64,000 bases of DNA from contig NZ_FVZB01000006.1 of NCBI RefSeq assembly GCF_900166655.1, positions 620,001 to 684,000 on the forward strand, written 5' to 3'. The notes under the pieces are model-generated. The model ran no database searches, was not told the DNA's origin, and saw nothing but the letters and a program-made list of their open reading frames with translations. The position numbers and the translations under genes were made by a program. The stretch comes from Halobacillus hunanensis (GTDB taxonomy: Bacteria > Bacillota > Bacilli > Bacillales > Halobacillaceae). How positions within the stretch are numbered: the stretch's first letter is position 1; each line of letters starts with the position of its first letter. Positions 47,366 through 63,284 of this stretch are shown here, piece by piece.

Positions 47366-47406
47366 AATTCCCTCCTGTTTTTATCGGAGATATTAAAGAC
47401 TCTTAT

Positions 47407-47538: not shown

Positions 47539-47571
47539 AAAAAAGTGCCGCCCTTATCCCGGATCAGCACC
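47539..47571 (-). terminator. Terminator of the glycine-zipper gene
   Basis: GTGCTG pairs with CGGCAC on the minus strand and T6 follows. Confidence 0.6.
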
Positions 47572-47590
47572 CTTTAGTTGAAGTTTTTAG

Positions 47591-47760
47591 TCATTCCTTA
47601 TTTGCCTTCCGCTTAAAGCTATACTCTAGAAGCAATCCTATCAAAGCCCCCAACGAAATACCGATGGCAAGATGATCCAACACAACACTAAAGTCACACC
47701 TAAACCAATGCCAATTGCCAGCCCACTTCCATTTACTTTCCGCTTTGTATCAGAAACCAT
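47591..47760 (-). pseudogene. Glycine-zipper small membrane protein gene with a frameshift
   Basis: From ATG 47760 (AAGAGGTGGTG upstream) the frame reads MVSDTKRKVNGSGLAIGIGL with G-x-x-x-G spacing. Near 47690 the frame shifts by one base and continues LDHLAIGISLGALIGLLLEY and SFKRKANKE to TGA 47591. Repaired, this is a 56-residue two-TM protein of a type common in bacilli. One indel only, so sequencing error is possible. Confidence 0.6.
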
Positions 47761-47792
47761 CACCACCTCTTATAGATAAAACAAACAATTAT

Positions 47793-47903
47793 TCAATACT
47801 TCAGCCACTGACGAAAATACTTTGTCACGATATCTCCTTCTGTTTTATCAAAGTTTATCGTAACTTCTTCCCCCAAACTTATAACTCCAGAATATCGCCA
47901 TAT
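47793..47903 (-). pseudogene. Short unassigned coding remnant
   Basis: QYGDILEL in one frame is followed, after a shift, by ISLGEEVTINFDKTEGDIVT and KYFRQWLKY to TGA 47793. No start or family recognised. Confidence 0.3.
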
Positions 47904-47925
47904 TGATTAATTAAACTTACTCATC

Positions 47926-48666: not shown

Positions 48667-48821
48667 AGAAATTCCTCCCTTCCCTTACAATTTAATAATA
48701 CTAACTCATCATTAAATATATTATCTTTTTATATTATCCACCTTTTTATGGCTTAACTTAAAATTCAAGAACTACCTTATAACTTCCTCATTGTTCCAGG
48801 GTATCGGCCCTATACATAAAT
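48667..48821. other. Intergenic region, no gene seen
   Basis: AT-rich and without coding frames. It should contain the promoter of the hydrolase gene. Confidence 0.3.
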
Positions 48822-48857
48822 AACGAGCACAATCATTACTTTAGAATTGCGCCCGTT
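48822..48857 (-). terminator. Degenerate GAGCGC-family hairpin
   Basis: AACGAGCACAAT pairs with ATTGCGCCCGTT with two mismatches. It lies 120 bases after the MerR-B12 regulator gene. Confidence 0.45.
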
Positions 48858-48977
48858 CGTATTTTGGAATAATTCGGGGAAGCGCTAAGCAATCTTGTTA
48901 ATTAGGAGCTTCCCCTTTGAATTTTTAATAGAAAAAGCATTTCCACAGCCTGGACATTTTTTTAAATGGCTAACAGA

Positions 48978-49859
48978 CTATGAAATAATATCCTCAATTG
49001 TAAAGGAAATATCCATGTGTTTTAGGTTCACTATTGACTTGTAATTATAAACACCCCTTCCTCCAATATAAAAAGAAGTGTACATATACCTTTCGGCCAG
49101 TTGATCAAGCTTTTCCAACAGATTTTCATCCTGTTGAAAAGGAATCCCGGTTGATGCAGAAAACAAGACCTTCTGCGGCCGCATATGTTCAATAAGTCTT
49201 TCAATTGATGAGAATTTAGGGGAGGCTCCAACTCTTGTAGTTCTCCATCCCTTCACCTGCAATTGAAGTAATAATATTTGCAAGGGGATTTCATGTAATT
49301 CTCCAGGCAGGCAAAAACCAACAGCATGTGGAGCTTCCAAGTTATGATTGAAGTTTCGGCCTATCTGCGTTAGAAAATCTTTTACGACCAGGCTCGATAC
49401 TGTTTCCTGGCTTTCATCCCACTCGCCGTTTTCCCACAGACCACCAATCTCTTCCAGAAAAGGCTGTACAGTGTTTTGTAAAAATAAATCAAGACCATAT
49501 TGATGATGGGATTGCTGCAACAGAAACTCTAACCCTTTTTCATCGTATATGGTTCCTTTCTCAATCATCTTCTCAACATTGGGGCTCTTCTCCACTGATC
49601 TCAGTGTATAGGTTGAGCTTTTTTCAGCTACGACACTATGAATAGCTTGCTTCATGGATTTCCCCTGGTCCCTCAACGCTTTTAATTCTTTTAAAGTTGA
49701 AAGATCATCAAATGTATACAGACGATACCCGTTGTCTAACCTTTGCGGTTGTATAACGTGATATCGGTTTTCCCACTTACGAATAAGCTGCTCAGAAAGA
49801 CCCGTCAATCCAGCAACTTCTTTAATATAATAATATCGACCTTGTAATTCCTCCATCAT
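48978..49859 (-). CDS. MerR-type regulator with B12-binding domain (CarH/LitR-like)
   Basis: A 293-residue regulator. Residues 8-75 are a MerR DNA-binding domain (YYIKEVAGLTGLSEQLIRKW, then NGYRLYTFDDLSTLKELKAL). Residues 95-170 fit the four-helix B12-cap domain, and 178-290 the Rossmann B12 domain with GELHEIP (His189, the expected lower cobalt ligand) and YIGGRGV. In light sensors of the CarH type the cap holds W-x9-E-H; here Trp142 and Glu152 are present but the next residue is Thr153. It is divergent from the crt operon, as CarH/LitR genes often are, so it probably represses the operon in the dark. Whether it still senses light is open. Confidence 0.85.
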   Translation of the reverse strand: MMEELQGRYYYIKEVAGLTGLSEQLIRKWENRYHVIQPQRLDNGYRLYTFDDLSTLKELKALRDQGKSMKQAIHSVVAEKSSTYTLRSVEKSPNVEKMIEKGTIYDEKGLEFLLQQSHHQYGLDLFLQNTVQPFLEEIGGLWENGEWDESQETVSSLVVKDFLTQIGRNFNHNLEAPHAVGFCLPGELHEIPLQILLLQLQVKGWRTTRVGASPKFSSIERLIEHMRPQKVLFSASTGIPFQQDENLLEKLDQLAERYMYTSFYIGGRGVYNYKSIVNLKHMDISFTIEDIIS

Positions 49860-49890
49860 ATCCGCCCTCTAAAGATATATTCTAACTATA

Positions 49891-49927
49891 GTATAACATT
49901 GTACAAGTATAAAATATGCTGTATAAT
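49891..49927. promoter_or_regulatory. Candidate regulator-binding region between the regulator and crt operon
   Basis: GTATAA occurs three times in the same orientation (49891, 49907, 49921), with the palindrome TTGTACAA (49899-49906) between. It lies 30-70 bases upstream of the MerR-B12 gene, where autoregulation would act. Confidence 0.4.
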
Positions 49928-50022
49928 GTTTTTCAATAACAAAATTATTACCAACAAGGGGTAATATTACCACAACGATGTTGGTTGAATTCATTATATC
50001 AATAGCAGCCAAACGTTCTAAG

Positions 50023-50047
50023 GTTTATTGCTCAATATCCTGGGATA
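50023..50047 (+). promoter_or_regulatory. Possible sigma-B-like promoter of the crt operon
   Basis: GTTTAT, 13 bases, then GGGATA, against the sigma-B consensus GTTTAA-N12-15-GGGTAT. It lies about 95 bases before crtM. The -10 match is 4 of 6, so this is tentative. Confidence 0.35.
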
Positions 50048-50139
50048 AAATAGGTATTAAACAACCTTAATAGATCGGAAAAAAATAAAAGCATGCCAAG
50101 CCATTCGACTATGTATGAATAGTTCAGGAGGAAATTGTT

Positions 50140-51036
50140 ATGGACACAAAGCAACGGCAAGCGGATTTTTATTATTGTGAAAAGATAATAAAAAAGCATT
50201 CCAAAAGCTTTTATTACGCTTTTTCAAAACTCCCCTCTGAAAAAGCAAATGCCGTGTATGCAATCTATGCTTTTTGCAGGACCGCAGACGATTGTGTAGA
50301 TGGAAATTATTCACCCGTGGAAAAGCGTCAGGCACTCAAACAATTAGAAAAAGAGTTGGATTTATTCAAGGATCATGCGGAATTGGATAAACCACTATGG
50401 CGTGCGCTCAGATATGTATTTACTAAGTATGATATGGATATCGAGCCTTTTTACGACCAGTTAACAGGACAATCCATGGATGTGGATTTTAATATCCCGA
50501 AAACAATGCAAGAACTGGAAAAATACAGTTATTACGTAGCTGGTTCTGTCGGTTTGATGCTTCTGCCTGTCATTGCTTCAGAATCTTCTGCTGATCTGCA
50601 TTCATCAGCAATAGATCTTGGCATCGCCATGCAAATCACGAATATCCTGCGTGATATTGGAGAAGATTTTCATGAGAAAAACCGCATCTACCTTCCAAAA
50701 GATGAATTAAGTCATTTTCAATATACTCAGAATGATTTACATAAGGGTACCATCAATGTAAACTTCATTAACCTATGGGAAAAGATGGCCACGCGTGCTG
50801 AATCATTATATAGTCATTTCTTATTCAACATTAACCACTTTGACGATGACAGCCGTTTACCCGTCTACCTGTCTGCCCAAGTGTACAGGGGAATACTAGA
50901 CGTTGTGCGAAACAATGAATACCAGTGTTTATCCAAACGGAACTATGTTACCCAAGGAAAAATGGCAGAATTAAAGCTTCTATCAGCTGCTGCCTTAGAT
51001 TTACAGAAAGGTAGTGTGTTACATGTTGAAAAATAA
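50140..51036 (+). CDS. crtM: Dehydrosqualene (4,4'-diapophytoene) synthase
   Basis: First enzyme of the C30 carotenoid pathway: condenses two farnesyl diphosphates to dehydrosqualene. It has 298 residues, of the squalene/phytoene synthase family. The two aspartate-rich motifs are AFCRTADDCVDGN (Asp50, Asp54) and NILRDIGEDFHEKNRIYLP (Asp172, Asp176). GTGQSMD-like LTGQSMDVDF and the YVAGSVGLMLLPV helix also fit. GGAGG lies 8 bases before ATG 50140. First gene of the crt operon; overlaps crtN by 14 bases. Confidence 0.95.
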   Translation: MDTKQRQADFYYCEKIIKKHSKSFYYAFSKLPSEKANAVYAIYAFCRTADDCVDGNYSPVEKRQALKQLEKELDLFKDHAELDKPLWRALRYVFTKYDMDIEPFYDQLTGQSMDVDFNIPKTMQELEKYSYYVAGSVGLMLLPVIASESSADLHSSAIDLGIAMQITNILRDIGEDFHEKNRIYLPKDELSHFQYTQNDLHKGTINVNFINLWEKMATRAESLYSHFLFNINHFDDDSRLPVYLSAQVYRGILDVVRNNEYQCLSKRNYVTQGKMAELKLLSAAALDLQKGSVLHVEK

Positions 51037-52525
51037 AAACGTACTGATCATCGGAGGCGGACTCGGTGGCCTATCCGCTGCCATTTCACTTGCGCAAAGA
51101 GGGTATGATGTCTCTCTATATGAAAAAAACGATCACATAGGGGGGAAATTAAACCGGCTTGAGCAGGATGGTTTTGGTTTTGACCTTGGTCCATCCATTC
51201 TTACGATGCCGAAGGTCTTTGAAAAATTCTTTACCGCCAGCGGAAAAAAAATGGAGGACTATGTCCCGCTTGAAAAGCTGGATCATCAATGGCGCTCTTT
51301 TTTCCCTAATGGCAATGTAATTGATTTATATCAAGATTTAGAAGAGATGCAAGCGAAGAACTCAACCCTGAAAAAAAAGGATATGCGTCAGTATCAAAAG
51401 CTACTTACATATTCAAAAAAGCTTTATGATATGACTGAGAAAACTTACTTTCAGCATGGCGTTGATAACACGAAAGGAATCATCCAATATTCAGGCGCGC
51501 TAAGTGCTTTGAGGAACTTTGATTTATTTTCCACAGTGCATCAGGCCATAGATAAACGAATAAGTAATAAGCAATTAAGAGACATGCTCTCCTATTTTAT
51601 TAAATACGTTGGTTCTTCCCCTTACGATGCACCAGCCGTATTGAATATGATGATTTACATGCAGCATGCCCAGGGCGTATGGTATGTGCCCGGGGGGATG
51701 CATCTACTCGCCAAAGGCCTGGTACAGCTGGCTGAAGAAATCGGTGTTACATTTCATACAGGAAAGAAAATTGTCAGACTTGAAAAAAAGAAAGGCGAAA
51801 TAGCCGGCGCTCTTTTGGAAGATGGGACAATACGAACCGCAGATTATTATATTGCTAATATGGAAGTCATACCAGCTTACGAGCAATTACTCCAGGAAAA
51901 TAAGCGTTATGTAAAAAAATTAAAAAAGAAATTCGAGCCCTCCAGTTCCGGCCTTGTTATGCATTTGGGAGTTAAAAAAAGCTATCCACAGCTCCATCAT
52001 CACAATTTCTTCTTCGCAAAAAATATGAAGAAGCAAATGGATAAAATATTCCATCGTCATCAACTGCCGGATGACCCTGTTATTTATTTGGTGAATGTCA
52101 ATAAAACAGATCCGGCACAGGCACCTGCAGGATACGAAAATTTAAAAGTACTACCCCACATTCCCTATATCAAGGATAAACCTTTAACCCAGCAAGACTA
52201 TGATCAATTCGCAGAGAGCGTACTCATCAAATTGGAAAAAATGGGGCTGGATGATTTACGGGATAACATTGTGACAAAGGATATATGGACACCAGAAGAT
52301 ATTAAACGTGTCTATGGTTCTGACCACGGTTCCATTTACGGGACACTATCAGATCGCAAGAAAAATAAAGGCTTTAAGCATCCGAAGCAGAGTGAACGCT
52401 ATAACAATCTGTATTTTGTCGGTGGAACTGTAAACCCGGGAGGAGGAATGCCAATGGTTACATTAAGCGGTCAGCAGGTAGGAGATAAAATTGCTCAGAG
52501 GGATACGCACCATGGCAGACAATGA
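51023..52525 (+). CDS. crtN: 4,4'-Diapophytoene desaturase
   Basis: Introduces double bases of conjugation into diapophytoene to give diaponeurosporene or diapolycopene. A 500-residue FAD enzyme. The dinucleotide motif is VLIIGGGLGGLSAAISLAQR, then LYEKNDHIGGKLNRLEQDGF, FDLGPSILTMPKVFEKFF and the C-terminal LYFVGGTVNPGGGMPMVTLS. ATG 51023 lies inside the end of crtM; a GTG at 51014 is less likely. It overlaps aldH by 14 bases. Membrane-associated by family. Confidence 0.95.
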   Translation: MLKNKNVLIIGGGLGGLSAAISLAQRGYDVSLYEKNDHIGGKLNRLEQDGFGFDLGPSILTMPKVFEKFFTASGKKMEDYVPLEKLDHQWRSFFPNGNVIDLYQDLEEMQAKNSTLKKKDMRQYQKLLTYSKKLYDMTEKTYFQHGVDNTKGIIQYSGALSALRNFDLFSTVHQAIDKRISNKQLRDMLSYFIKYVGSSPYDAPAVLNMMIYMQHAQGVWYVPGGMHLLAKGLVQLAEEIGVTFHTGKKIVRLEKKKGEIAGALLEDGTIRTADYYIANMEVIPAYEQLLQENKRYVKKLKKKFEPSSSGLVMHLGVKKSYPQLHHHNFFFAKNMKKQMDKIFHRHQLPDDPVIYLVNVNKTDPAQAPAGYENLKVLPHIPYIKDKPLTQQDYDQFAESVLIKLEKMGLDDLRDNIVTKDIWTPEDIKRVYGSDHGSIYGTLSDRKKNKGFKHPKQSERYNNLYFVGGTVNPGGGMPMVTLSGQQVGDKIAQRDTHHGRQ

Positions 52526-53909
52526 CGGTTCAAGTTTAAAGGGATTACTAGAAAGGCAGCGAGAGGACTTACGCACCAGCGCCATTCCTTCGGTAGACAT
52601 TCGAAAGAAAAAGCTTTTGCAACTAAAAACCATTCTTATAGAACATGAAGCAGCATTTATTCAAGCTCTCTATTCAGATATGGGAAGGCCGGCATTCGAA
52701 GCTTTTTCTTTTGAAATCGCAGTCTTATTGAATGAAATTGATTATGTATGCAAGCATTTAGAAAAATGGGCCCGACCTGTCCGCTCCCGTCATATAAAAT
52801 TCGGATACGTGGAAGCGATCCAAAAGATGAGGAACCCATACGGCAGTGTATTGATCATCAGCTCGTGGAATTATCCGCTCCAGCTCGCACTCATGCCTGC
52901 TATTAGTGCGATAGCGGGCGGAAACAGCTGTGTGATCAAACCATCGGAACATGCACCGGCAACAAGCGAACTGCTGGAAAAGACGATCAATCAAGTGTTT
53001 TCTCCCAAACAGCTGGTCGTAGTTACTGGGGATGCACATACCGCCAAGTTCTTGACTTCCTCACCTTTTGATCTGATTTTTTTTACAGGCAGCCAGCAGA
53101 CAGGAAAAGCCGTAGCACAGCAGGCCGCCCACCAGCTCACACCGGTAATACTGGAACTCGGCGGAAAAAATCCCTGTGTCATAGATGAGACAGGCTTTTC
53201 AAAAGCGGCAATCCAGGAAATTGTCTGGGGTAAATTTCTTAACGCGGGACAGACCTGTATTGCGCCGGACACACTTTTTGTCCATGAATCTATTTATGAA
53301 CAAACATTATCTGAAATTTCATCGACGCTTTCAACTTTCTATGGAGATCAAACTGAGGACAGCAATGATTATGGGAGAATTTGTAACGATGCCCATTTTC
53401 AAAAAGTGGTTCATTTCATCGAACAAGGCGATGTATGGCATGGTGGTGCATATGATGAAGATGATTTGTTCATTGAACCAACAGTGGTTACAGACATGAG
53501 GCAAGGAAGTTCCATCCTGCAAGAAGAGATTTTTGGGCCGGTCCTTCCTGTCATCCCATATACAGACTTTACTACATTATTATCGAAGCAGATTATTCAA
53601 CGTGATGCTCTGACAGGGTATATCTTTAGTAAAAACAAGCATCATATTCGTTTATTCAAGCAATACATGCAATCACCAACGACCAGTGTCAATCAAGTGA
53701 TTCATCACGCCGCAAATCCTCACGTCGCTTTTGGCGGTGTTGGGCGAAGCGGATACGGCTCCTATCATGGCAAAGCGGGTTTTTTAGCCTTCAGCTATGA
53801 CAAGACAAATTATAAAGCACATCATTACTTGCATGTTCAAGACAAATTTCCGCCGTACACGGATAGAAATATGAATATAGTAAAGAAGTTTAGAAAGTGG
53901 CTGTTGTAA
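52512..53909 (+). CDS. aldH: Diaponeurosporen-aldehyde dehydrogenase
   Basis: Oxidises the terminal aldehyde of the C30 carotenoid to the carboxylic acid. A 465-residue aldehyde dehydrogenase: SSWNYPLQLALMPAISAIAG, VIKPSEHAPATSELLEKT, FTGSQQTGKAVAQQAAHQ, the glutamate in VILELGGKNPCVI, and the catalytic Cys in NAGQTCIAPDTL. The C-terminus has a basic amphipathic tail that may bind the membrane. Start ATG 52512 with AGAGGG upstream, overlapping crtN. In S. aureus this gene lies outside the crt operon; here it is inside. Confidence 0.9.
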   Translation: MADNDGSSLKGLLERQREDLRTSAIPSVDIRKKKLLQLKTILIEHEAAFIQALYSDMGRPAFEAFSFEIAVLLNEIDYVCKHLEKWARPVRSRHIKFGYVEAIQKMRNPYGSVLIISSWNYPLQLALMPAISAIAGGNSCVIKPSEHAPATSELLEKTINQVFSPKQLVVVTGDAHTAKFLTSSPFDLIFFTGSQQTGKAVAQQAAHQLTPVILELGGKNPCVIDETGFSKAAIQEIVWGKFLNAGQTCIAPDTLFVHESIYEQTLSEISSTLSTFYGDQTEDSNDYGRICNDAHFQKVVHFIEQGDVWHGGAYDEDDLFIEPTVVTDMRQGSSILQEEIFGPVLPVIPYTDFTTLLSKQIIQRDALTGYIFSKNKHHIRLFKQYMQSPTTSVNQVIHHAANPHVAFGGVGRSGYGSYHGKAGFLAFSYDKTNYKAHHYLHVQDKFPPYTDRNMNIVKKFRKWLL

Positions 53910-53966
53910 ACACTGCACTCGTTGTGACATGGATAGGAAATAAAGAATTATTTTAGGAGAATTGCC

Positions 53967-54440
53967 ATGCCGATTGTTTCATTACCCGTCATGTGGGTCA
54001 TTTTCATTAATGTTATTGCATGGACATTTTTTCATCTGTTCATTTCTGCGATTTGTATGCGACTGCCTTTAGCATTTTTTCTGAAAGATCGCCTCTTGTT
54101 TCAAATTTTCTCTTGGGAAAAGTCAGGAGAGTTGTGGCAACGATTATTTCGGGTGAAAACATGGAAAGGTTTTCTTATAGATGGCACGATTTTTCTTAAA
54201 AAAGGGTACAGTAAAAAGGGATTGCATAGCAACAGATTAAGTGACTTAAAAATTTTTGCTGCGGAAACAAAACGCGCGGAGTTGACACATTGGCTCTCCA
54301 TTCTGCCCGCTCCGTTGTTTTTCTTATGGAACCCGTTATGGGCGGGCTGGGTAATGATTTTGTATGCCTTTGTATTCAACCTTCCCATTATTGTTGTTCA
54401 GCGCTACAATCGCGGACGTATTGCTGCAATCACAGCATGA
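53967..54440 (+). CDS. crtO: Glycosyl-diaponeurosporenoate acyltransferase
   Basis: Esterifies the sugar of the glycosylated C30 carotenoid with a fatty acid, the last step to a staphyloxanthin-type pigment. A 157-residue membrane protein with three or four helices. Family marks are SWEKSGELWQRLFRVKTWKG, the TKRAELTHWLSILPAPLFFL block and VVQRYNRGRI at the end (R-Y-N-R-x-R). TAGGAGAATTGCC precedes ATG 53967. Located 57 bases after aldH in the same operon. Confidence 0.9.
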   Translation: MPIVSLPVMWVIFINVIAWTFFHLFISAICMRLPLAFFLKDRLLFQIFSWEKSGELWQRLFRVKTWKGFLIDGTIFLKKGYSKKGLHSNRLSDLKIFAAETKRAELTHWLSILPAPLFFLWNPLWAGWVMILYAFVFNLPIIVVQRYNRGRIAAITA

Positions 54441-54545
54441 ATTCTTATGAACAACGGCATTATCTTGGGGTATAGAGCAGTATTTTTGTCCGTAACCAAA
54501 TTCACCGCAAATGAACAAATAAGGATTGGAAATGAGGGAAGTTAG

Positions 54546-56060
54546 ATGAGAAAGAAGGTCATAGTTGTTGGTGCGGGTGTTGCAGGTCTTGCCAGTGCAA
54601 TTAGACTGCAGCATGCCGGCTACCAGGTAGAACTATATGAAAAAGAGTCAAAGCCTGGAGGAAAAATGAATCAAATTGAAATAGATGGCTACAAATTTGA
54701 TTTGGGACCAAGTATCGTCATGATGCCAGAATTGTATCGGGAAATATTTGAACTGTGCGGCCGCAATCCTGACGATTATATTCCCATGGAAAAATTGGAC
54801 CCGATCTACCGGGCTTACTTCAGTGATATGCCCGACAACCCTTTTGATATCTCTTCAGACCTTACCGAATTAACGAAGACGATTGAATCCATCAGTGAAG
54901 AAGATACCGAGGGATTTTTTAAATATCTTCATGAAATTTACAAACGCTTTATCGTTGCAAAGCATGATATCCTCCAAAGACCGTTTCGAAAACAAACTGA
55001 CTTTTACAACCTGCCCATGTTGAAGAAGGCCATGAAGCTGAAAACATTCGACACTGCGGATCAATTTATCGGTAAATATATAAAGAACGAGCGGCTGAAG
55101 CAGTTAATTAGTTTTCAAACGTTGTACATAGGAATCTCTCCGATAAAAAGCCCATCTTTTTATACGATGATTCCCATGATTCAATTTTTATATGGGGTAT
55201 GGTTTATTAAAGGCGGTATGTACACAATGGCACTGGCTATGGAAAGACTTTTTAAAGAACTTGGGGGAACGGTTTACTATAACAAGAATGTTCAGGAAAT
55301 ATGTGTTGAAAATCATAAAGCGACCGGCATTATGGTAGATGATCAGAAAGCTCCTGCAGATTTAGTAGTCTGCAATGCAGATTTCCCATATGCCATGAAA
55401 AATCTCGTCAAGGACCCGTCGGCCAAAGGGAAATATACCGACCGAAAGATTGACCGCATGAAATACTCCTGTTCTTGTTTTCTATTATATCTGGGCATGG
55501 ATAGGAAATATGAAGAAGTTGAGCATGTTCACAATTTTATCTTCAATGAAAAGCTGGATCAAAATTTGCAAGATATTTTTGATGGAAAGAAACTGACGAA
55601 TGCCTCTTTTTATGTGTATATAGCATCGAAAATGGATCCCTCCCTCGCACCCGAGGGAAAAGACGGGTTGTATATCCTTATGCCTGTCTCCAATGTAGCT
55701 TCTGCGAATTATGAATGGAACGAGGAAACGATTCAATATTACCGCAGCTACATTTTAAATGAACTTAAGAAATTAAAAGGTTTTGAAAATATTGATCATG
55801 AGATTGTAACTGAAACTTGTATAACACCACTGGACTTTGAATCAAAATTCAATGCTTATAATGGTGCCACTTTTGGTTTACAGCCAACTCTTTCTCAAAG
55901 TAACCACATGCGCCCGCAAAGTAAGGCGACGCATTGTGACAACCTGTATTTCACCGGGAGCAGCACACATCCGGGTGCTGGTGTTCCCATTGTGCTATTG
56001 TCCGCCAAGATCACCACACAGGAACTTATAAAAGACGACCAAGGTATTTTATTTGGCTAA
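54546..56060 (+). CDS. crtP: 4,4'-Diaponeurosporene oxygenase
   Basis: Oxidises the terminal methyl group of diaponeurosporene to the aldehyde. A 504-residue relative of CrtN (CrtNb/CrtP group). FAD motif VIVVGAGVAGLASAIRLQHA, then YEKESKPGGKMNQIEIDGYK, FDLGPSIVMMPELYREIFEL and the C-terminal NLYFTGSSTHPGAGVPIVLL. The ending G-S-S-T-H-P-G-A-G-V-P distinguishes it from CrtN (G-T-V-N-P-G-G-G-M-P). GAGGGAAG precedes the ATG. Gap of 105 bases from crtO without a clear promoter. Confidence 0.93.
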   Translation: MRKKVIVVGAGVAGLASAIRLQHAGYQVELYEKESKPGGKMNQIEIDGYKFDLGPSIVMMPELYREIFELCGRNPDDYIPMEKLDPIYRAYFSDMPDNPFDISSDLTELTKTIESISEEDTEGFFKYLHEIYKRFIVAKHDILQRPFRKQTDFYNLPMLKKAMKLKTFDTADQFIGKYIKNERLKQLISFQTLYIGISPIKSPSFYTMIPMIQFLYGVWFIKGGMYTMALAMERLFKELGGTVYYNKNVQEICVENHKATGIMVDDQKAPADLVVCNADFPYAMKNLVKDPSAKGKYTDRKIDRMKYSCSCFLLYLGMDRKYEEVEHVHNFIFNEKLDQNLQDIFDGKKLTNASFYVYIASKMDPSLAPEGKDGLYILMPVSNVASANYEWNEETIQYYRSYILNELKKLKGFENIDHEIVTETCITPLDFESKFNAYNGATFGLQPTLSQSNHMRPQSKATHCDNLYFTGSSTHPGAGVPIVLLSAKITTQELIKDDQGILFG

Positions 56061-56128
56061 AGGAATGCCAACAAGGAAGGGAAATTATTATTCAGCGTAT
56101 CGCGGCTATGATGAAGGAGGTATATTAA

Positions 56129-57253
56129 ATGACAGCTGTAGAGGTAGTTAATCTTGTTATCGGTTTGCTTGCCGTTTTGATTGCCATTCTGATGTTCTGG
56201 TCTTTGCCAGTTCCAGGTTTCTCCTCCAGTGATCATACCAGTCTTCCGTTTCTATCCATCATTATTCCTGCCAGAAACGAAAGCAGCCGGATCGCACCAT
56301 TATTGCAATCATTGCAGGAACAAAAATTCCAATCATTTGAGGTTTTGGTTGTGGATGACAATTCCTCTGACAATACAGCCGCTGTCGCGAAAGCTTATGG
56401 TACAAAGGTTATACAGAATAAAACAAATGATTTGGAATCGGGAGCCGGAAAGTCATTGGCATGCTGGTATGGGGCTAAATACGCAAAAGGGAAATGGCTC
56501 TTGTTTTTAGATGCAGACACTTATTTCACCAATGCGGACAGCATGAAACATTTACTGCTTTACTACCAGCAAAAAGGAGCCAAGGGCATTGTATCATTAC
56601 AGCCATTTCATACAGTTCACCGCCTGTATGAAAATTTCTCCGCAATCTTTAATATTATTGTTGTTGTGGGAATGAATATATTTACATTTTGGAGATACCG
56701 TTTTAAAACCGCTGGCTCATTCGGCCCGTGCATTTTATGTAACAGAGACGATTACTTTTTGTCGGGTGGCCATAAAAAGATCCAAGGAGCAATTATGGAT
56801 GACCTGGCATTGGGACAGGCGTTTCTGGACAAAAATCTTCCGGTTTATTGCTTAGGCGGTAAAGGAGTCATATCTTTCCGCATGTACCCGGAAGGATTAA
56901 AAAGCCTTATCGAGGGCTGGTGTAAAAGCTTTGCTGTAGGTTCAAAGTCTACAAATCCAGTCGTTATGTTGATGACCATCATTTGGATTTCCGGCAGTTT
57001 TATCATTACAGGAGCACTGTTCTCTTCCATTACTGCCCTGAATCCTGCCGCCATAATTTTCAGTGCTATATTGTATATTCTTTATACTTTTCAAACTGCA
57101 TGGTTTGCTCGTAGGTGCGGTGATTTCAAATGGTTTATTTTCCCTTTCCACCCGGTTTTGTTTTTATTTTTCACAGGAATTTTTTTATATTCCTTATTCC
57201 GAGTAAACATCCTACATTCTGTAAAATGGAAGGATCGCAAAATAAATGTCTAA
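56129..57253 (+). CDS. crtQ: 4,4'-Diaponeurosporenoate glycosyltransferase
   Basis: Adds glucose to the carotenoid carboxylic acid. A 374-residue membrane GT2 enzyme: N-terminal anchor (residues 7-25), SIIIPARNESSRIAPLLQSL, VLVVDDNSSDNTAAVAK, KWLLFLDADTYFTNAD (D-x-D metal site), the acceptor region GPCILCNRDDYFLSGGHKKI and IMDDLALGQAFLD, then three C-terminal helices. GAAGGAGG lies before ATG 56129. Matches CrtQ of staphylococci and Halobacillus-type clusters. Confidence 0.93.
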   Translation: MTAVEVVNLVIGLLAVLIAILMFWSLPVPGFSSSDHTSLPFLSIIIPARNESSRIAPLLQSLQEQKFQSFEVLVVDDNSSDNTAAVAKAYGTKVIQNKTNDLESGAGKSLACWYGAKYAKGKWLLFLDADTYFTNADSMKHLLLYYQQKGAKGIVSLQPFHTVHRLYENFSAIFNIIVVVGMNIFTFWRYRFKTAGSFGPCILCNRDDYFLSGGHKKIQGAIMDDLALGQAFLDKNLPVYCLGGKGVISFRMYPEGLKSLIEGWCKSFAVGSKSTNPVVMLMTIIWISGSFIITGALFSSITALNPAAIIFSAILYILYTFQTAWFARRCGDFKWFIFPFHPVLFLFFTGIFLYSLFRVNILHSVKWKDRKINV

Positions 57254-57286
57254 AAGGACGTGGTATTCGGTTAGGAGGGAAGCAAT

Positions 57287-57958
57287 ATGGACACTTTTCT
57301 TTTCACCTTTCTTACAATTGCTTATACGACCCTTTCAGTGCTAGCAATAAGAGTTGTTAGAAATTATAAAGTTCTCAGTACATTGCTATTACTGCCTGTT
57401 ATCGTCGGTCTTATCTATGACAACGGGATTATTTCAGCCGGCCGCTTTATAGGAGAAGGTCCTCTCTTAGAAGGTCTAAACCTCGCTAGGTTTTGGATAC
57501 ATGCCTTTTTCACACCACTCCTAGTCCTGTATGCTTGGAAAACGCTTGAACAGGCAAATGTTCAGTGGGCGAGTAAAAACTGGGTAAGGATCTCTGCTTT
57601 TCTTTTAACAGCTGTGCTTATATTAGTGGAGTTATTTACTGTAGTAATTGGCCTCAACATAGAAGCAAGGTTGGAATACGGAGTTTTAAGTTACAGTAGT
57701 ACCGAACCTTCAAGTGGTCCGCCCATCATGGTACTGGTTGTTTCAGTGGTGCTGCTAGCCTCTTCCTTGATCATTTGGCGCCGTCAAAAATGGATATGGT
57801 TTTTCGTTGGTTCCCTTTTAATGATCGTAGGAAGTGCTATCCAGCTGCCAGTAAATAGTGGTGCTATTACAAACTTCTTTGAACTAATTCTAATAAGCTC
57901 ATTGCTTGGCACGGCTTACTTTCAAGGAAAAGTTTATAAATCATTAAAAGGAGGGTAA
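57287..57958 (+). CDS. Seven-TM membrane protein in the crt operon, function unknown
   Basis: A 223-residue integral membrane protein with seven hydrophobic segments (near residues 2-21, 31-52, 70-86, 98-123, 144-164, 168-190 and 193-210). I do not recognise the family. It has no rhodopsin retinal lysine in the last helix region, and the shape (DNGIISAGRFIGEGPLLEGL, WIHAFFTPLLVLYAW) recalls small lipid or carotenoid-modifying membrane enzymes only loosely. GGAGGGAAGC precedes the ATG. It lies 33 bases after crtQ and 3 bases before the glycosylase gene, so it is part of the operon. It may modify, bind or place the pigment. Confidence 0.75.
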   Translation: MDTFLFTFLTIAYTTLSVLAIRVVRNYKVLSTLLLLPVIVGLIYDNGIISAGRFIGEGPLLEGLNLARFWIHAFFTPLLVLYAWKTLEQANVQWASKNWVRISAFLLTAVLILVELFTVVIGLNIEARLEYGVLSYSSTEPSSGPPIMVLVVSVVLLASSLIIWRRQKWIWFFVGSLLMIVGSAIQLPVNSGAITNFFELILISSLLGTAYFQGKVYKSLKGG

Positions 57959-57961
57959 CGT

Positions 57962-58375
57962 ATGCGATTATGGCATGAGAATCTCATCCCCTACTTACCT
58001 AGACAACAGCTTCTCGGGCAACACCGCGAATGTTGTGCGCTCAGAGGAAAAGGATGGGGCAAAGAACATTCAACGGTGAATTACGTTTTCAAATACAGTC
58101 CCTATTACCTGTATTTGTATCATATGAAAGTCATGGAAGAAATGAGTAACAGAGGGTACAACTGTGACCCCCTTTGGTATGACATGTTTTACCGTGGCAA
58201 GCAATGTACCCCCTATAGCAATGACCAACTTGATGATGTTAATTCATCTGCACCTGTTTCCGAAGTTACTATTTATCCGGAGCATGACCAAACCTACCTG
58301 GACGAATGCCTTTCAAACCTTAAAGAAAAAGGGATAAACCTGAATCGAAATACGACAAAAACAGTAAACCTTTAA
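57962..58375 (+). CDS. Pyrimidine-dimer DNA glycosylase-like protein (TIGR02328/Pyr_excise type)
   Basis: A 137-residue cytoplasmic protein. It starts MRLWHENLIPYLPRQQLLGQ and has HRECCALRGKGWGKEHSTVN, then YVFKYSPYYLYLYHMKVMEE and MSNRGYNCDPLWYDMFYRGK, the pattern of the TIGR02328 proteins related to T4 endonuclease V (DenV). By family it would recognise UV photoproducts or similar lesions, but this branch is little tested. AAAGGAGGG precedes the ATG, 3 bases after the 7-TM gene. It ends the operon and ties pigment formation to DNA repair. Confidence 0.8.
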   Translation: MRLWHENLIPYLPRQQLLGQHRECCALRGKGWGKEHSTVNYVFKYSPYYLYLYHMKVMEEMSNRGYNCDPLWYDMFYRGKQCTPYSNDQLDDVNSSAPVSEVTIYPEHDQTYLDECLSNLKEKGINLNRNTTKTVNL

Positions 58376-58381
58376 CAAAAA

Positions 58382-58418
58382 CAATCCAACATCGTTTGCG
58401 ATACGCGATGTTGGATTG
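58382..58418 (+). terminator. Hairpin ending the crt operon
   Basis: CAATCCAACATCG pairs exactly with CGATGTTGGATTG (11-base loop). No T-run follows. Confidence 0.75.
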
Positions 58419-58543
58419 CTGATCAGGTTGACTTCTTGTAACGCACATTCAATTCAATTATAGTACAGACTGAGATATAATGGAAAAAAGCATTTATTCT
58501 GACCTTTAGAGATGCTCGCGCATTTGAAGACACCCAGGAGTCT

Positions 58544-59572
58544 TTACGTGAAATACTCTAACCTTGCATAAGGAAAATACTTATCAATATATCCACCGAG
58601 TGTATCTTTCATATCTTCCTGCTCCTCGTTCTGATACACGTATTTTCCAATCCCATATCGGCCCCACTTCCACTTTCTTTTAGACTCCTCAAGTTCGAGC
58701 TTACTCATAGGATAGTTTTTTTCAATTACACGCTTAGCTGGTTTAGTAAATCGATGCTGAATGAGCTCAAAAGTTAAATCCCTTACGGCGTGAGAAGGGA
58801 GTGCCTTTTTTAAATGTTTAAACATTTCCTCATATCCATCCTTCCACCCTTCATGCAGATAAATGGGCGCAACGATAAATCCCAAAGGATAACCTGCTTC
58901 AGCTATCTTTACAGCAGCTTTTATTCTGTCCTTGAGCTTTGACGTTCCAGGTTCAAAATACTTGATAACATAATCATCATTAATACTAAAACGAAACCGT
59001 GTTCGACCATTGTGCTTCGCATCAAGTAAATGGTCGACATGTTCGAATTTGGTCACGAAACGAAGCTTTCCATATTCAGACTTTCCGAAATACTCGATCG
59101 CATCTTTCAATGTATGGGTTAGATGATCTACTCCTACAATATCTGATGTACATGAAGCTTCAAAACGCGTGGGCTCCGGCGCCCGTTCTTTCATATATTC
59201 CTCTGCTGCAGCAAAAATCTCATCCGTATTTACATATGTTCGTATATACGGCTTGCTCCCCATCGTCGTTTGTAAATAACAATAATGACAGTGGCCCATA
59301 CACCCTGTTGCAAAAGGGATCGCATATTCTGCAGAAGGCTTCGAGGTATCAAATTTTAACGTTTTGCGGACACCGACGACGAGGGTAGACTTGGCAACAC
59401 GATATTTTTGAAAATCGTTCTCCCCAGGTAAATTCCTAATCTGATTGTGGGAAGTAGTACGTCTAATTTCGATGCCCATATCTTCAAACTTCTTGATAAG
59501 TTCCCTGCCCTTTGCATACTCTAGTGCTCGAGGCTCTACGTAAACAAGCTGAGGTACAAAAGGCTTAACCAT
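58544..59572 (-). CDS. splB: Spore photoproduct lyase
   Basis: A radical SAM enzyme that directly reverses the spore photoproduct (5-thyminyl-5,6-dihydrothymine) during germination. It has 342 residues, as in B. subtilis. The iron-sulfur motif is ATGCMGHCHYCYLQT (C-x3-C-x2-C), and the hydrogen donor Cys141 is in RFEASCTSDIVG. Start ATG 59572 (MVKPFVPQLV) has GGGGAGGG upstream and overlaps the end of splA; the frame extends further but without a site. The gene shows that the organism makes endospores. It converges on the crt operon. Confidence 0.95.
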   Translation of the reverse strand: MVKPFVPQLVYVEPRALEYAKGRELIKKFEDMGIEIRRTTSHNQIRNLPGENDFQKYRVAKSTLVVGVRKTLKFDTSKPSAEYAIPFATGCMGHCHYCYLQTTMGSKPYIRTYVNTDEIFAAAEEYMKERAPEPTRFEASCTSDIVGVDHLTHTLKDAIEYFGKSEYGKLRFVTKFEHVDHLLDAKHNGRTRFRFSINDDYVIKYFEPGTSKLKDRIKAAVKIAEAGYPLGFIVAPIYLHEGWKDGYEEMFKHLKKALPSHAVRDLTFELIQHRFTKPAKRVIEKNYPMSKLELEESKRKWKWGRYGIGKYVYQNEEQEDMKDTLGGYIDKYFPYARLEYFT

Positions 59573-59819
59573 AAAAGCCCTCCCCATTAGCTCCAAAAGC
59601 TTCCCTATAGGCTTGCTCAGCATGATCTTCCGTCTTATAAACGGCCACTTCATCTGTTAAAGGATAATATGTTTCGTATACAAATAAGGATAGCTCCCCA
59701 GGGTTTTCTGGGTTCTGAACAACTGCTGCCTCTTGTACATTCGCCACGTCTTGGGCATGAGGATTTCGAATAATCACATAAACAATTTCTCCAGCGTTAA
59801 ACGTTTCGTGTATATCCAT
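59565..59819 (-). CDS. splA: Regulator of spore photoproduct lyase
   Basis: An 84-residue TRAP-like protein that in B. subtilis lowers splB expression. It begins HETFNAGEIVYVIIRNPHAQ and continues DVANVQEAAVVQNPENPGEL and SLFVYETYYPLTDEVAVYKT, with the family's strand-rich layout. It overlaps splB by 8 bases, so the two form an operon. A sigma-G promoter is expected; I could not place one with confidence upstream of 59819. Confidence 0.92.
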   Translation of the reverse strand: MDIHETFNAGEIVYVIIRNPHAQDVANVQEAAVVQNPENPGELSLFVYETYYPLTDEVAVYKTEDHAEQAYREAFGANGEGFYG

Positions 59820-59864
59820 AATTCCACCTAACCTTTTTCAGTTTTTTCATTATAGGGATGATAG

Positions 59865-59902
59865 AAAGCCTCCTCTCTCAAAGTTAAAAAGAAGAGGCTT
59901 CT
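59865..59902 (-). terminator. Terminator between the three-TM gene and splA
   Basis: AGAAGCCTC on the minus strand pairs with GAGGCTTTC-type bases. It ends the gene at 59907. Confidence 0.6.
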
Positions 59903-59906
59903 GTAT

Positions 59907-60179
59907 TCATTGATAATTTTTATGATATTCTGCAGTTGAGTGGACTATATGAATGATCATCATAACCCAGGCCACTTCTGAAAGGATAAGCCCCAGGTAG
60001 AACGTTAACCATGGGATCGAGAGTACTGCAGGTGCCTCAACGAATAACGCCTGAAAATAGTAAACCCACATGCCCACAAGCAGAATGGTTTGAGCAACAG
60101 CAAGTGTCATTCTCTTCAGGTTCATAAACATGAAAGGAGCCACTGTTGCCAATAACAGAAAAATAAGCACAATATCCAT
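59907..60179 (-). CDS. Three-TM membrane protein
   Basis: A 90-residue protein with segments near residues 2-18, 28-43 and 55-78, ending in a His-rich tail (MMIIHIVHSTAEYHKNYQ). Start ATG 60179 has AGGAGGTGG 5-8 bases upstream; the longer frame to 60212 lacks it. No family recognised. It may be cotranscribed with nothing else. Function unknown. Confidence 0.65.
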   Translation of the reverse strand: MDIVLIFLLLATVAPFMFMNLKRMTLAVAQTILLVGMWVYYFQALFVEAPAVLSIPWLTFYLGLILSEVAWVMMIIHIVHSTAEYHKNYQ

Positions 60180-60319
60180 TGAAACCACCTCCTCTTTAAA
60201 AAGTGTCCCCATGCAGCGTATTTTTATGATAAAACGGACACATGAGGCTTAGCTTATAAAAAAGAACGTATTTTGATTTAAAGATTGTTACGAACTATGC
60301 ACTTTTGTTGATAGAATAA

Positions 60320-60359
60320 GGGATCCTACATGTTAATCAGGACTCACATGTAGGATCCC
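60320..60359. terminator. 13-bp perfect hairpin
   Basis: GGGATCCTACATG pairs exactly with CATGTAGGATCCC (14-base loop). T-run (CTTTTTC) close by on the plus strand. It lies downstream of the gene at 60472. Confidence 0.7.
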
Positions 60360-60471
60360 CTGCTTTTTCATGCAAAATAAAGATTAAATCCTAAATTAAT
60401 TACCAGCATCTAACCTAATAATTTTGACATGAATAAAACTTATTTTTTTATAAAAAGAGTTGAACACAACC

Positions 60472-61731
60472 TTATGTTTGCTTTTCTTCAGCTTTCCGTT
60501 TCTCTTGTTCTGCTTCCAGCTTCTCTTCAGCTGCCTCTTGTTTCTCTTCCTTGGCCTCCTTCTTCTCTTCTTCAGATTTCTTAATCTTTTCATAACGCTG
60601 GCGCTGACGGTAGCCATAAGTGGAAGCTAGAACAACCTCTTCATTTTCAAGAGCAGACCCCAGTGCACCAATGATGGTGGAGACACTTGTTGCAGTCCAA
60701 GCAATGTAGAAATAGTTGATGTATCCTATACTTCCGGATAACTGAGACTCCAGCATCCCCATTGGAATCAGTATGATGACGGCAGCAGAAAACAGAATGA
60801 ATAATATAAAGTAATACATGATTACCGTGAATAATAGCGTGAAAAAAGTAGCAGCATTATATAATTTTCTTATATAATCGTTTCCTCCATCGCTCTTTTT
60901 TTCCCATAACTGGTGTGCCAGAATGATCCAAATGACCATGGCCAATATGCAAATGATCGAAAGTATGAACATGCGCCATGTGCTGTAATTATTACTGAGC
61001 TTCCATAATGTCGGAAAAACAAGAGCGTATGAACCAGTCGTAAAGGCAAAAATGATGACCTTCATAAAAGCTGGAAACATAGACCACGGGCGGTTGGCAC
61101 GCACCATTCCCGACAAGACTCGTAAAGCACCGCTTATACGTGACTTTATAGTGAATCGCACATCGATCTTCGATTCATTTTCTTCCGGGGTTTCCCGTTG
61201 AATAGGAGACAACATTTCAAATGCGCGTTTTCCGACTAACCTCGTGGATTCTTTATTTTTCAACTCTTCGTGTGCGTCATCGTCTTTAGACTGGATCCGC
61301 TCTTCTGCCTGCTCTCGATCCTCATCTGAAACTCCATAGTACATCTCATTCACTAATTGTAAGATCGATTCTCGTATTCGCTTGTACATGGCAGCAGATC
61401 CAAGACCCGGAAGACTGATTAAGGCGACATTCTCCTCTTCAAACGCTTCAGCGACAATCGGTTTCTTTCCTTTGAATAACGGTAAATCGGTTAGGCTGAT
61501 CGCAAAGTCCCATTCCTTATTGTTCTTTTTATCTAGGGTGGCTCCTATTACTTCCGATGAATTTCCCGTTCCTCCAGTAAGAGCGTCCTCTATATACTCC
61601 AGATTCCACTCGTATTTTTCATTTACATAGTATTTAAGTAAATCGGGGAGTTCATTTTTCAAACTTTTTACTAATGAATTCGGATACCCCGGGGCTGTAA
61701 TTAATCCAAGTGTTTTGATTGATTGGCTCAT
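60472..61731 (-). CDS. Large membrane protein with soluble N-domain and charged tail
   Basis: A 419-residue protein. Residues 1-215 are soluble: an alpha/beta part (KTLGLITAPGYPNSLVKSLK, WDFAISLTDLPLFKGKKPIV, NVALISLPGLGSAAMYKRIR) is followed by a charged helical linker. Residues 218-370 hold four hydrophobic segments. The last 45 residues are a lysine/glutamate coiled coil (EEKKEAKEEKQEAAEEKLEA). Related Bacillus proteins carry the name 5,10-methylene-tetrahydrofolate dehydrogenase in some genomes, but I see no support for that activity. GAGGAGAGG lies before ATG 61731. Single gene. Function unknown. Confidence 0.7.
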   Translation of the reverse strand: MSQSIKTLGLITAPGYPNSLVKSLKNELPDLLKYYVNEKYEWNLEYIEDALTGGTGNSSEVIGATLDKKNNKEWDFAISLTDLPLFKGKKPIVAEAFEEENVALISLPGLGSAAMYKRIRESILQLVNEMYYGVSDEDREQAEERIQSKDDDAHEELKNKESTRLVGKRAFEMLSPIQRETPEENESKIDVRFTIKSRISGALRVLSGMVRANRPWSMFPAFMKVIIFAFTTGSYALVFPTLWKLSNNYSTWRMFILSIICILAMVIWIILAHQLWEKKSDGGNDYIRKLYNAATFFTLLFTVIMYYFILFILFSAAVIILIPMGMLESQLSGSIGYINYFYIAWTATSVSTIIGALGSALENEEVVLASTYGYRQRQRYEKIKKSEEEKKEAKEEKQEAAEEKLEAEQEKRKAEEKQT

Positions 61732-62138
61732 CTCCCTTTACCTCTCCTCGTATAACTTTCAATTTATTCATTACTATATAACCATCATTTATTCTACCTA
61801 AACGTGGAGAGGGACAAGGCTGTACTTGGTATGGGCGAGAATAGCTGGCCCTTTTTGAATAATGGTATGTATGGTCCGGGTACAAGAATCTACAGAATAC
61901 CTTAATCCATACAAGCCGTGGTTTTGTTGCGCCTAAATAACAGTAGAGTTTGACAAATAGTGCTCTTTGAGATAAAACCCTTAATACCGTGGCCTAAAGA
62001 AATTCATTTATCTTTCAATTCCTCTCGTATTTTGCTGCTGTTATCCATTTTTCAAATTAAGACCAGTTTCTATATACTTAAAAGTAGATTATCCACCGCT
62101 TCCTGAGGGTACAATGGTTAAAAAAAGTGAGGTCACCT
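61732..62138. other. Intergenic region between divergent genes
   Basis: No supported gene. A short minus frame at 61652-61885 overlaps the larger gene's start and is not convincing. Promoters for both flanking genes must lie here; none stands out. Confidence 0.35.
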
Positions 62139-63020
62139 ATGTTCACTACTCCTATTGCAAAATTACTGCGACTTGTTCCTAATCAAGCAAAAAAGAACCC
62201 TATGATCCCCTTACAACAAGTAAAAATGAAAACAGAAGTTATAGTTGAAACATCCGTTCAGCTTACCCATATATCTTTTTACTATCCTTTAGGAGCCGAA
62301 AAGAAGAAGCTCCCTGTCTACATCAACTTCCATGGCGGAGCATTCATAATGAATGAAAAGGAGATGGATGATCCTTATTGCCGATTTCTGGCCAACCAGA
62401 CTGGGTGTGTCATTCTAAATGTCGATTATGCGAAAGCGCCGGAGTACCCTTTTCCTAAACCAATTGAACAGTGCTATGAAATTATCCAATGGATGAAGAG
62501 AAAAGCGGATGGTTTGAATATCAATCCGGAAAAAGTCATGGTAGGCGGTCAAAGTTCCGGTGCAAATATCGCAGCAGCTCTCTGTCTTTACCTAGAAGAG
62601 AAAGGGGGAAACCAGCCACTCCTCCAAGTATTATCTTGCCCTATGCTGGACTTTGTAACCTCGCATGCAGATAAACCAGAACCAGATCAGTGGCGTTCTA
62701 GATACCCTCAGGTCGCAAGTTTTTTAAACACGTGCTATGTACCTGAAAAAGAACAGGCAGAACATCCTCTTGCTTCCCCTGTACGTGCTGATGTAAGTGA
62801 CCGTCTAGCTCCTGCTCTTATTGTAACCGCCGAGTATGACGCTTTTAGACCAGAAGCCGAATTTTATGCTGAGAAATTAAAGAAAGCAGGGGTAAAGGTT
62901 CAAGAAAAGCTATTCAAAGACTGTTTACATGCTTTTACCCATCTTGGCCCGAAAGAAGAAGCCGAGGAGGCTTGGAACTTGATAGCAAATAAAATCAGAG
63001 AAGCGGCAGAATCCCTATGA
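62139..63020 (+). CDS. HSL-type alpha/beta hydrolase (esterase/lipase)
   Basis: A 293-residue cytoplasmic esterase of the hormone-sensitive lipase family. Oxyanion motif NFHGGAFIMNEKEMDD (H-G-G-A), nucleophile VGGQSSGANIAAAL (G-x-S-x-G), acid ALIVTAEYDAFRPEAEFYAE (Asp in E-Y-D-A-F-R-x-E), and catalytic His in DCLHAFTH. Start ATG 62139 with GAGGT 5 bases upstream; a GTG at 62127 overlaps. Short-chain acyl esters are the likely substrates. Single gene. Confidence 0.9.
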   Translation: MFTTPIAKLLRLVPNQAKKNPMIPLQQVKMKTEVIVETSVQLTHISFYYPLGAEKKKLPVYINFHGGAFIMNEKEMDDPYCRFLANQTGCVILNVDYAKAPEYPFPKPIEQCYEIIQWMKRKADGLNINPEKVMVGGQSSGANIAAALCLYLEEKGGNQPLLQVLSCPMLDFVTSHADKPEPDQWRSRYPQVASFLNTCYVPEKEQAEHPLASPVRADVSDRLAPALIVTAEYDAFRPEAEFYAEKLKKAGVKVQEKLFKDCLHAFTHLGPKEEAEEAWNLIANKIREAAESL

Positions 63021-63284
63021 AAATTGGAACAAGGAAGGAAAGAAGTAATTGATGAGAAAAATGAGGCAGCCAGCTGAAGAATAAAGATGGATAGAAGGTG
63101 TGGTCAAGGCTTTCTCCCCCATTCAGGGGAGACTGAGGGGAAGACATCACATAATCTATAAACCCTTCCTTAAAAACTTTATAACAAAGATAATTCTATT
63201 AACGATCTTCCGGTTTTGCCCTCACTTTTTTTAAAAAGCAGGGAACTTCTATTAGCTGGTATTGTGGAAAATCCTATTTAAATA
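63021..63284. other. Intergenic region, no gene seen
   Basis: No coding frame. A TCTCCCC/GGGGAGA hairpin lies at 63112-63132. Bases 63244-63269 repeat a motif also at 14919-14946 (CTTCTATTAGCYGG and onward). Confidence 0.35.

Follow-up and report, generated by a model that had tools for sequence, protein, structure and literature searches.

Class I CarH/LitR regulators, as in Thermus thermophilus, Bacillus megaterium and Myxococcus, combine a MerR domain with a four-helix bundle and a Rossmann B12 domain, possess an axial His177 together with Trp131 and Glu141, and are associated with TGTACA-type boxes. On the Thermus plasmid pTT27, the carH-crtB-phr cluster unites CarH, a phytoene/squalene synthase and a photolyase. 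The staphyloxanthin-type C30 pathway comprises crtOPQMN and aldH, and the splAB genes of Bacillus subtilis are expressed in the forespore under sigma G. In the class II LitR of Pseudomonas, according to PMC9758184, only the four-helix bundle is present and repression is relieved by a short LOV anti-repressor; TGTACA-type boxes are reported there for LitR relatives. Here we describe a locus in a 64,000-nucleotide stretch of the Halobacillus hunanensis genome (the window), in which a CarH-like regulator gene is divergent from a C30 carotenoid (crt) operon ending in a membrane-protein gene and a pyrimidine-dimer DNA glycosylase gene, with splAB converging on its end.

The regulator of the window has the domains of class I CarH, the axial His, the Trp, the Glu and the TGTACA-type boxes, but it is only 24-26% identical to T. 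thermophilus CarH, has lost His142 and carries Pro after ExHxx. It is also reminiscent of class II LitR, being a variant LitR near light genes with TGTACA boxes and, in two relatives, a LOV gene nearby; in contrast to class II, both B12 subdomains are present. Where the pTT27 cluster contains a photolyase, the window has a C30 pathway, a dimer glycosylase and a spore photoproduct lyase. The enzyme set, CrtO included, is that of the staphyloxanthin-type pathway, while aldH lies within the operon, the order is M-N-aldH-O-P-Q and the CarH-like regulator is divergent. As in Bacillus, SplB passes its equivalog cut-off, its cysteines are in place and splA overlaps splB, but here the pair lies within a pigment island and appears to have moved along with it. 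The individual enzymes are ordinary, and regulator, pigment and repair together are already known from pTT27; what is new is that spore-repair cargo is mobile and that a class of CarH-like regulators has a broken adenosylcobalamin (AdoB12) motif. In a literature search, none of the titles and abstract openings listed gave an account of such regulators or of an island joining crt genes, glycosylase and splAB.

We read the locus as a horizontally exchanged Bacillales photoprotection island with two transcription systems, namely regulator-crt-glycosylase and a separate splAB, and give this reading a probability of roughly 0.7. The gene identities, strands and intergenic gaps proposed in an earlier note on this DNA all proved correct when checked against the coordinates and Pfam/NCBIfam (splA by PF11132); from crtM to the glycosylase gene the gaps are -14, -14, 57, 105, 68, 33 and 3 bases. 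The block and its principal features are as follows.

48968..63031, unstranded: block common to the window and a congener (genome G024), in four collinear pieces with DNA identities of 95%, 97%, 90% and 91%
48978..49859, minus: CarH-like MerR/B12-fold regulator (REG), divergent from the crt operon; from sequence searches, predicted structure and tree
50140..51036, plus: crtM, C30 (dehydrosqualene-type) synthase; SQS_PSY above cut-off, C30 by context
51023..52525, plus: crtN desaturase; crtI_fam above cut-off
52512..53909, plus: aldH, aldehyde dehydrogenase; Aldedh above cut-off
53967..54440, plus: crtO, glycosyl-4,4'-diaponeurosporenoate acyltransferase; PF18927, 100.5 bits (cut-off 27.3)
54546..56060, plus: crtP, crtI-family enzyme; crtI_fam above cut-off, oxidase role by context
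56129..57253, plus: crtQ, GT2 glycosyltransferase; GT2 above cut-off
57287..57958, plus: predicted membrane protein, the seven-transmembrane (7TM) protein of the earlier note; no family match
57962..58375, plus: pyrimidine-dimer DNA glycosylase family protein; PF03013 Pyr_excise, 89.2 bits (cut-off 23), and TIGR02328
58382..58418, unstranded: hairpin of 14-15 pairs between the converging units; folding z -5.6 (plus) and -4.7 (minus)
58544..59575, minus: splB, spore photoproduct lyase; SPL above cut-off, equivalog 492 bits (cut-off 400)
59565..59819, minus: splA, overlapping splB; PF11132 SplA, 103.8 bits (cut-off 25)

The evidence for exchange comes from the comparison with G024. DNA identity between the two genomes is 95% over 48968-58423, 97% over 58538-60274, 90% over 60270-62025 and 91% over 62029-63031, and the block ends 10 bases beyond the regulator stop on the left and 11 bases beyond an esterase stop on the right. 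No common sequence was found in 18 kb of the left flanks. The rpoB loci of the window genome (G000) and G024, on the other hand, are 85.0% identical, and in the rpoB tree G000 pairs with genome G028 (SH-like approximate likelihood ratio test, SH-aLRT, 90; DNA 92.6%) and G024 with genome G029 (99; DNA 93.3%). DNA comparison revealed no counterpart of 48968-58423 in G028 or G029, and a protein search of both did not find the regulator, crtM, the 7TM protein or the glycosylase. Block identities of 90-97% against 85% for rpoB, together with nearest relatives that are devoid of the crt part, point to horizontal exchange. The splB genes follow the same pattern, being 96.7% identical between the two islands, while those of G028 and G029 are 79.5% and 83.7% identical, respectively, to that of their own partner. 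In addition, G024 carries a second, broken splB with two TGA and two TAA codons in the matched third (L121 7719-8048), and this copy has neighbours like those around the intact G029 splB. We infer that splAB arrived with the island and that the native copy in G024 decayed. By these comparisons the ~14-kb block, splAB included, is horizontally exchanged and is one unit of inheritance, but it is probably not one regulon. The earlier note had proposed one functional block at 48978-59819; the related block runs on past that limit to 63031.

The B12 domains of the regulator both score under their Pfam cut-offs (22.4 against 23 and 19.7 against 32.1), and the fold was therefore verified by alignment to solved CarH and by structure prediction; the CarH equivalog model gives 87.7 bits against a cut-off of 400. 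With phmmer, residues 9-242 align to T. thermophilus CarH (E 3.5e-19 and 4.2e-19), which is also the best PDB match (E 2.4e-18) of an AlphaFold2 model built from 39 sequences (mean predicted local distance difference test score 88.7, predicted template-modelling score 0.68). CarH chains containing only the B12 part superpose on the model with a root-mean-square deviation of 2.5-3.4 Å over about 200 alignment columns; with full-length CarH it is 13-21 Å, as expected if the domains sit differently. Judged by the alignment and the model, the regulator possesses the MerR domain and the full cobalamin-binding fold of class I LitR/CarH.

Regulator relatives were collected in a contig scan, and the best 80 of the 156 matched, hereafter the named loci, were analyzed; 66 of them carry about 10 kb on each side. 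A regulator match at E ≤ 1e-15 is present in 38 of the 44 genomes of the family, but the window type occurs only in the window and G024 (93% identical), the other 36 being 23-30% identical. A sample of 397 genomes across the order yielded 54 with a match at E ≤ 1e-26; 16 of these (window included) are at least 41% identical and the remainder at most 31%. A tree of 97 rows (one identical pair, quick method, some long branches) splits the window-type regulators from 11 ordinary Bacillales rows, T. thermophilus CarH and an Azoarcus homologue with an SH-aLRT of 99. This tree places the regulator in a CarH-like subfamily of its own, distinct from the ordinary Bacillales CarH. Of the ordinary homologues (L074-L084), the three whose neighbours were read, L075, L081 and L083, adjoin mecA- and glutamate-dehydrogenase-type genes (Pfam check in L075), with no crt relative within their 20-kb stretches.

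PMC9304148 describes Wx9EH as crucial to CarH photoreceptor activity and, together with the B12 motif D/ExHx2G/P-x41-SxT/V-x22-27-GG, as separating CarH from CarA; W131, E141, H142 and H177 are named as key to adenosylcobalamin binding in PMC11796333. In the 81 rows of window and named loci, Trp131, Glu141 and His177 are each found in 80 and Glu175 in all 81. His142 is kept in only six rows, replaced elsewhere by Ala (32), Ser (31), Thr (7) or others (5), and in 72 rows ExHxx is followed by Pro instead of Gly. Among the ordinary Bacillales rows, all 11 have the Trp, Glu141 and ExHxxG, and ten have His142. With three further rows (84 in all), the His142 loss needs a single change on the tree, on a branch with a support of only 53, and seven His-keepers lie near the base; Paenibacillus turpanensis (L198) is one relative that keeps the His. 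CarA is without the Trp, whereas the window-type regulators have lost the His, a different change. The window regulator itself reads W142-x9-E152-T153, with Thr in place of His. Its E187-L-H189-E-I-P192-x41-S234 matches the start of the B12 motif and G266-G267 is present, with SxS replacing SxT/V and a final spacing of 29. The regulator keeps the CarH fold and the axial His, but with a broken EH motif the B12 photoreceptor-like label that the earlier note gave it is uncertain. The Anoxybacillus tepidamans homologue (L180, identical to L068) has an Arg at the axial His position, a natural loss of the B12 ligand.

In an unbiased 8-mer count over 81 upstream regions, TTGTACAA is present in 36, where 0.9 would be expected. 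A 14-base box matrix, trained on the other loci with the window and L136 excluded, scores 17.7 bits at 49895 and 12.9 bits at 49917, in opposite orientations. Two predicted features lie in front of crtM.

49895..49930, unstranded: paired regulator boxes AACATTGTACAAGT (plus) and AACATTATACAGCA (minus), 17.7 and 12.9 bits, predicted
49899..49927, plus: predicted crt promoter TTGTAC-N17-TATAAT within the boxes, from box overlap and conservation

TGTACA-like boxes thus lie over the predicted crt promoter, as in LitR/CarH-type operators. The pattern ATTRTACAN{11,15}TGTAYAAT occurs once each in G024 and the Peribacillus cavernae genome (G247), both times at this crt promoter, and in G000 at the crt promoter and once within a transport-permease gene; the reversed control gave 0. 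The promoter spacing is kept in G024, P. cavernae, Lentibacillus kapialis (CTGTAC) and one metagenome-assembled genome (TACAAT). Five of 13 crt-linked regions have the box-promoter arrangement (window, G024, L136, L137 and L138), L183 and L188, of other layout, being outside this comparison. The paired AACATTRTACAA boxes are the likely operator of the regulator, covering the predicted crt promoter, and control of the carotenoid genes by the regulator, as the earlier note held, is on the strength of these boxes very likely. An 11.2-bit box lies 21 bases upstream of gene 60472.

For splAB the picture is different. No box of at least 10.5 bits was found upstream of splA in the four islands (window, G024, L136 and L137), and the two units are separated by the hairpin at 58382-58418, which has its T-tail on the splB strand. 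This hairpin exceeds the loop limit of the terminator scan and was not listed by it; overall, that scan was near chance (11 against 9.8). A strict sigma-G pattern was found in 0 of 20 splA upstream regions, native copies included, and is hence uninformative about the splA promoter.

The combination recurs outside Halobacillus. Thirteen of the 80 named loci have crtM or crtN with at least 50% identity (L136-139, 141, 146, 147, 159, 162, 165, 174, 183 and 188), and in two of them, P. cavernae (L136, on the same contig as L059 of G247) and L. kapialis (L137), the regulator, C30 genes, an SRPBCC-like gene, the glycosylase and splAB are found together. The window regulator clade (SH-aLRT 100) has six members, of which four, i.e., the window, G024, L136 and L137, have splB nearby; for L138 and L139 of the same clade, glycosylase and splB are not in the available stretches. 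A photolyase gene, searched with that of L186, is near the regulator in 21 of the 80 loci, but 16 of these are from Sporosarcina and therefore not independent. Of the crt-linked loci, L136-139, L141, L146, L147, L159, L162, L165 and L174 have a crtP-like gene directly beside the regulator, before crtM, which the window does not have; L136 and L137 carry a further crtP besides it. In the splB tree, the window and G024 group with G028 and G029 (99/95), P. cavernae and L. kapialis fall in another group (98/94), and the P. cavernae splB is apart from that of its rpoB partner G172.

A general rule that repair genes follow pigment genes did not emerge. Of the 44 family genomes, 35 have crtM and 38 splB but only two the glycosylase, and crtM and splB are at least 1.5 Mb apart in eight of the eight other genomes that have both on one contig. 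The crtM genes of the 33 other carriers are 42-50% identical, which marks them as a different cluster. The gene-order comparison among relatives that the earlier note had suggested thus recovered the set in G024, P. cavernae and L. kapialis, whereas G028 and G029 are without 48968-58423.

Several results weigh against the proposed island. Near the regulator, splB is found in only four and the glycosylase in only two of the 80 named loci, and the gene orders differ among the window, P. cavernae and L. kapialis islands. A common origin of the four island splAB pairs was rejected (one splB clade, approximately unbiased test p 0.003), so that more than plain descent of splAB alongside the crt cluster from a single founder must have been involved; this suggests that splAB joined crt islands at least twice, with replacement by recombination as the alternative. 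Single boxes at a lower threshold number 21 in the window against 17-22 in shuffles, and a 17.4-bit box lies inside crtP, for which reasons only the box pair is informative. The strict box-promoter arrangement is absent from eight of the 13 crt-linked regions, and the 64-kb window has two occurrences of the loose version. Scanning the region for generic promoters gave 31 sites against 31.2 expected, the crt site being among the four best, and the case for the crt promoter thus stands on the boxes and their conservation. The regulator also lacks His142, as do 77 of the 84 rows. A 0.5-kb piece to the right of the G024 block corresponds to positions 70523-71049 of the window genome (84.7%), 7.5 kb further right, and the right-hand neighbourhood may therefore be partly shared. 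A mobile element as carrier was not supported, there being no integrase at the edges and no common stretch of at least 9 bases between them.

If the island reading holds, the regulator would in the dark repress the crt operon and probably also its own gene, and this repression would be steric, as the boxes hold both promoter hexamers. A light response of its cobalamin, or of a partner, would admit RNA polymerase. The 7TM and glycosylase genes would be co-transcribed with the crt genes, by which vegetative cells would gain pigment and dimer repair together. Like its B. subtilis counterpart, the splAB pair would have forespore expression, independently of the regulator, and would owe its island membership to joint transfer and selection for sunlight survival and not to shared transcription.

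One alternative concerns light sensing. The regulator might not itself be the light sensor, binding cobalamin without AdoB12 photochemistry or none at all, with another signal or partner relieving repression. We regard this as a serious alternative of somewhat less than even probability: the His of Wx9EH is Thr in the window and another residue than His in 77 of 84 rows, on one side of a branch (support 53), the axial His is lost as well in one row (L180, identical to L068), and class II LitR offers the precedent of a LOV anti-repressor. A YtvA-family LOV-STAS gene is in fact located in the G024 block (L118 10517-11287; 324.9 bits, cut-off 250), and a 44% identical relative is directly beside the regulator in Oceanobacillus manasiensis (L146 11106-11837). 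These two are the only crt-linked loci with a LOV gene, however; the window has none, and among the 80 named loci it is missing from all 79 but L146. Moreover, Trp131, Glu141, Glu175 and His177 are each kept by at least 80 of the 81 rows, and the predicted fold is that of CarH. A broader and rather doubtful idea is that a large Bacillales CarH-like class has replaced the AdoB12 upper-face motif (Wx9EH becoming Wx9E with Ser, Ala or Thr, and ExHxxG becoming ExHExP), senses light otherwise, and drives pigment and dimer repair on mobile islands to which splB was attached repeatedly; the chemistry could then involve another cobalamin, another ligand in the light state or a LOV partner.

As for the repair genes, a mobile pigment operon could have come to lie beside splAB and the glycosylase gene by chance, without any functional link. 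The few loci with the association, the convergent orientation, the absence of a strong box at splA and the occurrence of the 7TM gene alone in 10 other places speak for such ordinary neighbours. Yet the association is seen in three genera with different gene orders, the splB tree calls for two or more joinings, and by a rough calculation a single splB in 4 Mb would be no more than 10 kb from any chosen gene in about 0.5% of genomes, which makes chance an unlikely explanation. The opposite proposal, made in the earlier note, is one light regulon including splAB. It draws on the shared block and its recurrence, and the P. cavernae splA comes after the regulator in the same orientation; nevertheless, with no box of at least 10.5 bits before splA in any of the four islands, a hairpin between the units and a paired operator that is all but confined to the crt promoter, we consider it very improbable. 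Of the one functional block of the earlier note, the unit of inheritance and its recurrence in two other genera are retained, and the single regulon is unsupported.

If this is true, spore UV repair, usually counted as part of the sporulation core, would also be portable cargo travelling with sunlight pigments, and sporeformers could turn sun-hardy in one step. The regulator subfamily would be a natural test of the residues that make a B12 protein a photoreceptor, since the fold and axial His are the same and EH is broken in 77 of 84, and it could supply a new optogenetic part.

The staphyloxanthin-type set CrtM, CrtN, CrtP, CrtQ, CrtO and AldH is complete in the window; the synthase passes no NCBIfam synthase model cut-off, and its C30 rather than C40 specificity is assigned from gene context. 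The membrane protein 57287-57958 has no Pfam or NCBIfam match, and its family is present in 60 of the 397 genomes. As a light-linked gene the 7TM gene was rejected, being surrounded by unrelated genes in 10 of the 10 other neighbourhoods read. Glycosylases of the T4 endonuclease V type use Glu23 and an N-terminal Thr2 nucleophile; the window translation has Glu at residue 23 and Arg at residue 2. T4 endonuclease V was discarded as a template, as a sequence search of the PDB gave no relative of the glycosylase. In SplB, the CxxxCxxC radical-SAM cysteines align to 4fhc, as does the Cys that we take to be catalytic. From the predicted crt promoter to crtM runs a leader (49930-50139, about 205 bases) with a folding z of -1.57, which is not significant, and an Rfam scan of 44000-64000 found no match and hence no leader RNA or riboswitch before crtM. 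The leader holds a perfect GGTAATATTACC palindrome, which is retained in G024.

Three further genes lie in the right part of the block.

59907..60212, minus: small protein, no family assigned; adjoins splA in G029 as well
60472..61731, minus: protein, no family assigned; homologues elsewhere in G029 and G033
62127..63020, plus: HSL-type esterase, inside the right edge of the block

The second of these is not island-specific, given its homologues elsewhere. Relatives of the esterase (76%) adjoin C30 crt genes and the same regulator type in Bacillus pinisoli and Litchfieldia salsa. Besides the LOV gene, the extra genes of the G024 block are a split SRPBCC-like gene, 70% identical to the P. cavernae copy over 67 residues, a Coat_F gene and a Mn-catalase fragment; the intact SRPBCC-like gene scores 23.0 for Polyketide_cyc against a cut-off of 23.4.

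An IS21-type gene pair lies at 40659-43036, ~6 kb left of the block and outside the shared stretch (IstB 219 bits); integrase domains of the partner gene score below cut-off. The P. cavernae island is beside rpsI, where no repeat of 13 bases or more was found. Phage-type integrase fragments, found in P. cavernae only, lie between that island and rpsI (Ribosomal_S9) at L059 14215-15013. The L. kapialis stretch holds at its outer end (L137 1-231) a reading frame labelled Dps-like by eye only. At L067 an amino-oxidase gene and a DUF1365-cyclopropane-synthase gene lie divergently to the regulator, and the annotation of an Azoarcus plasmid shows a comparable group next to a MerR gene.

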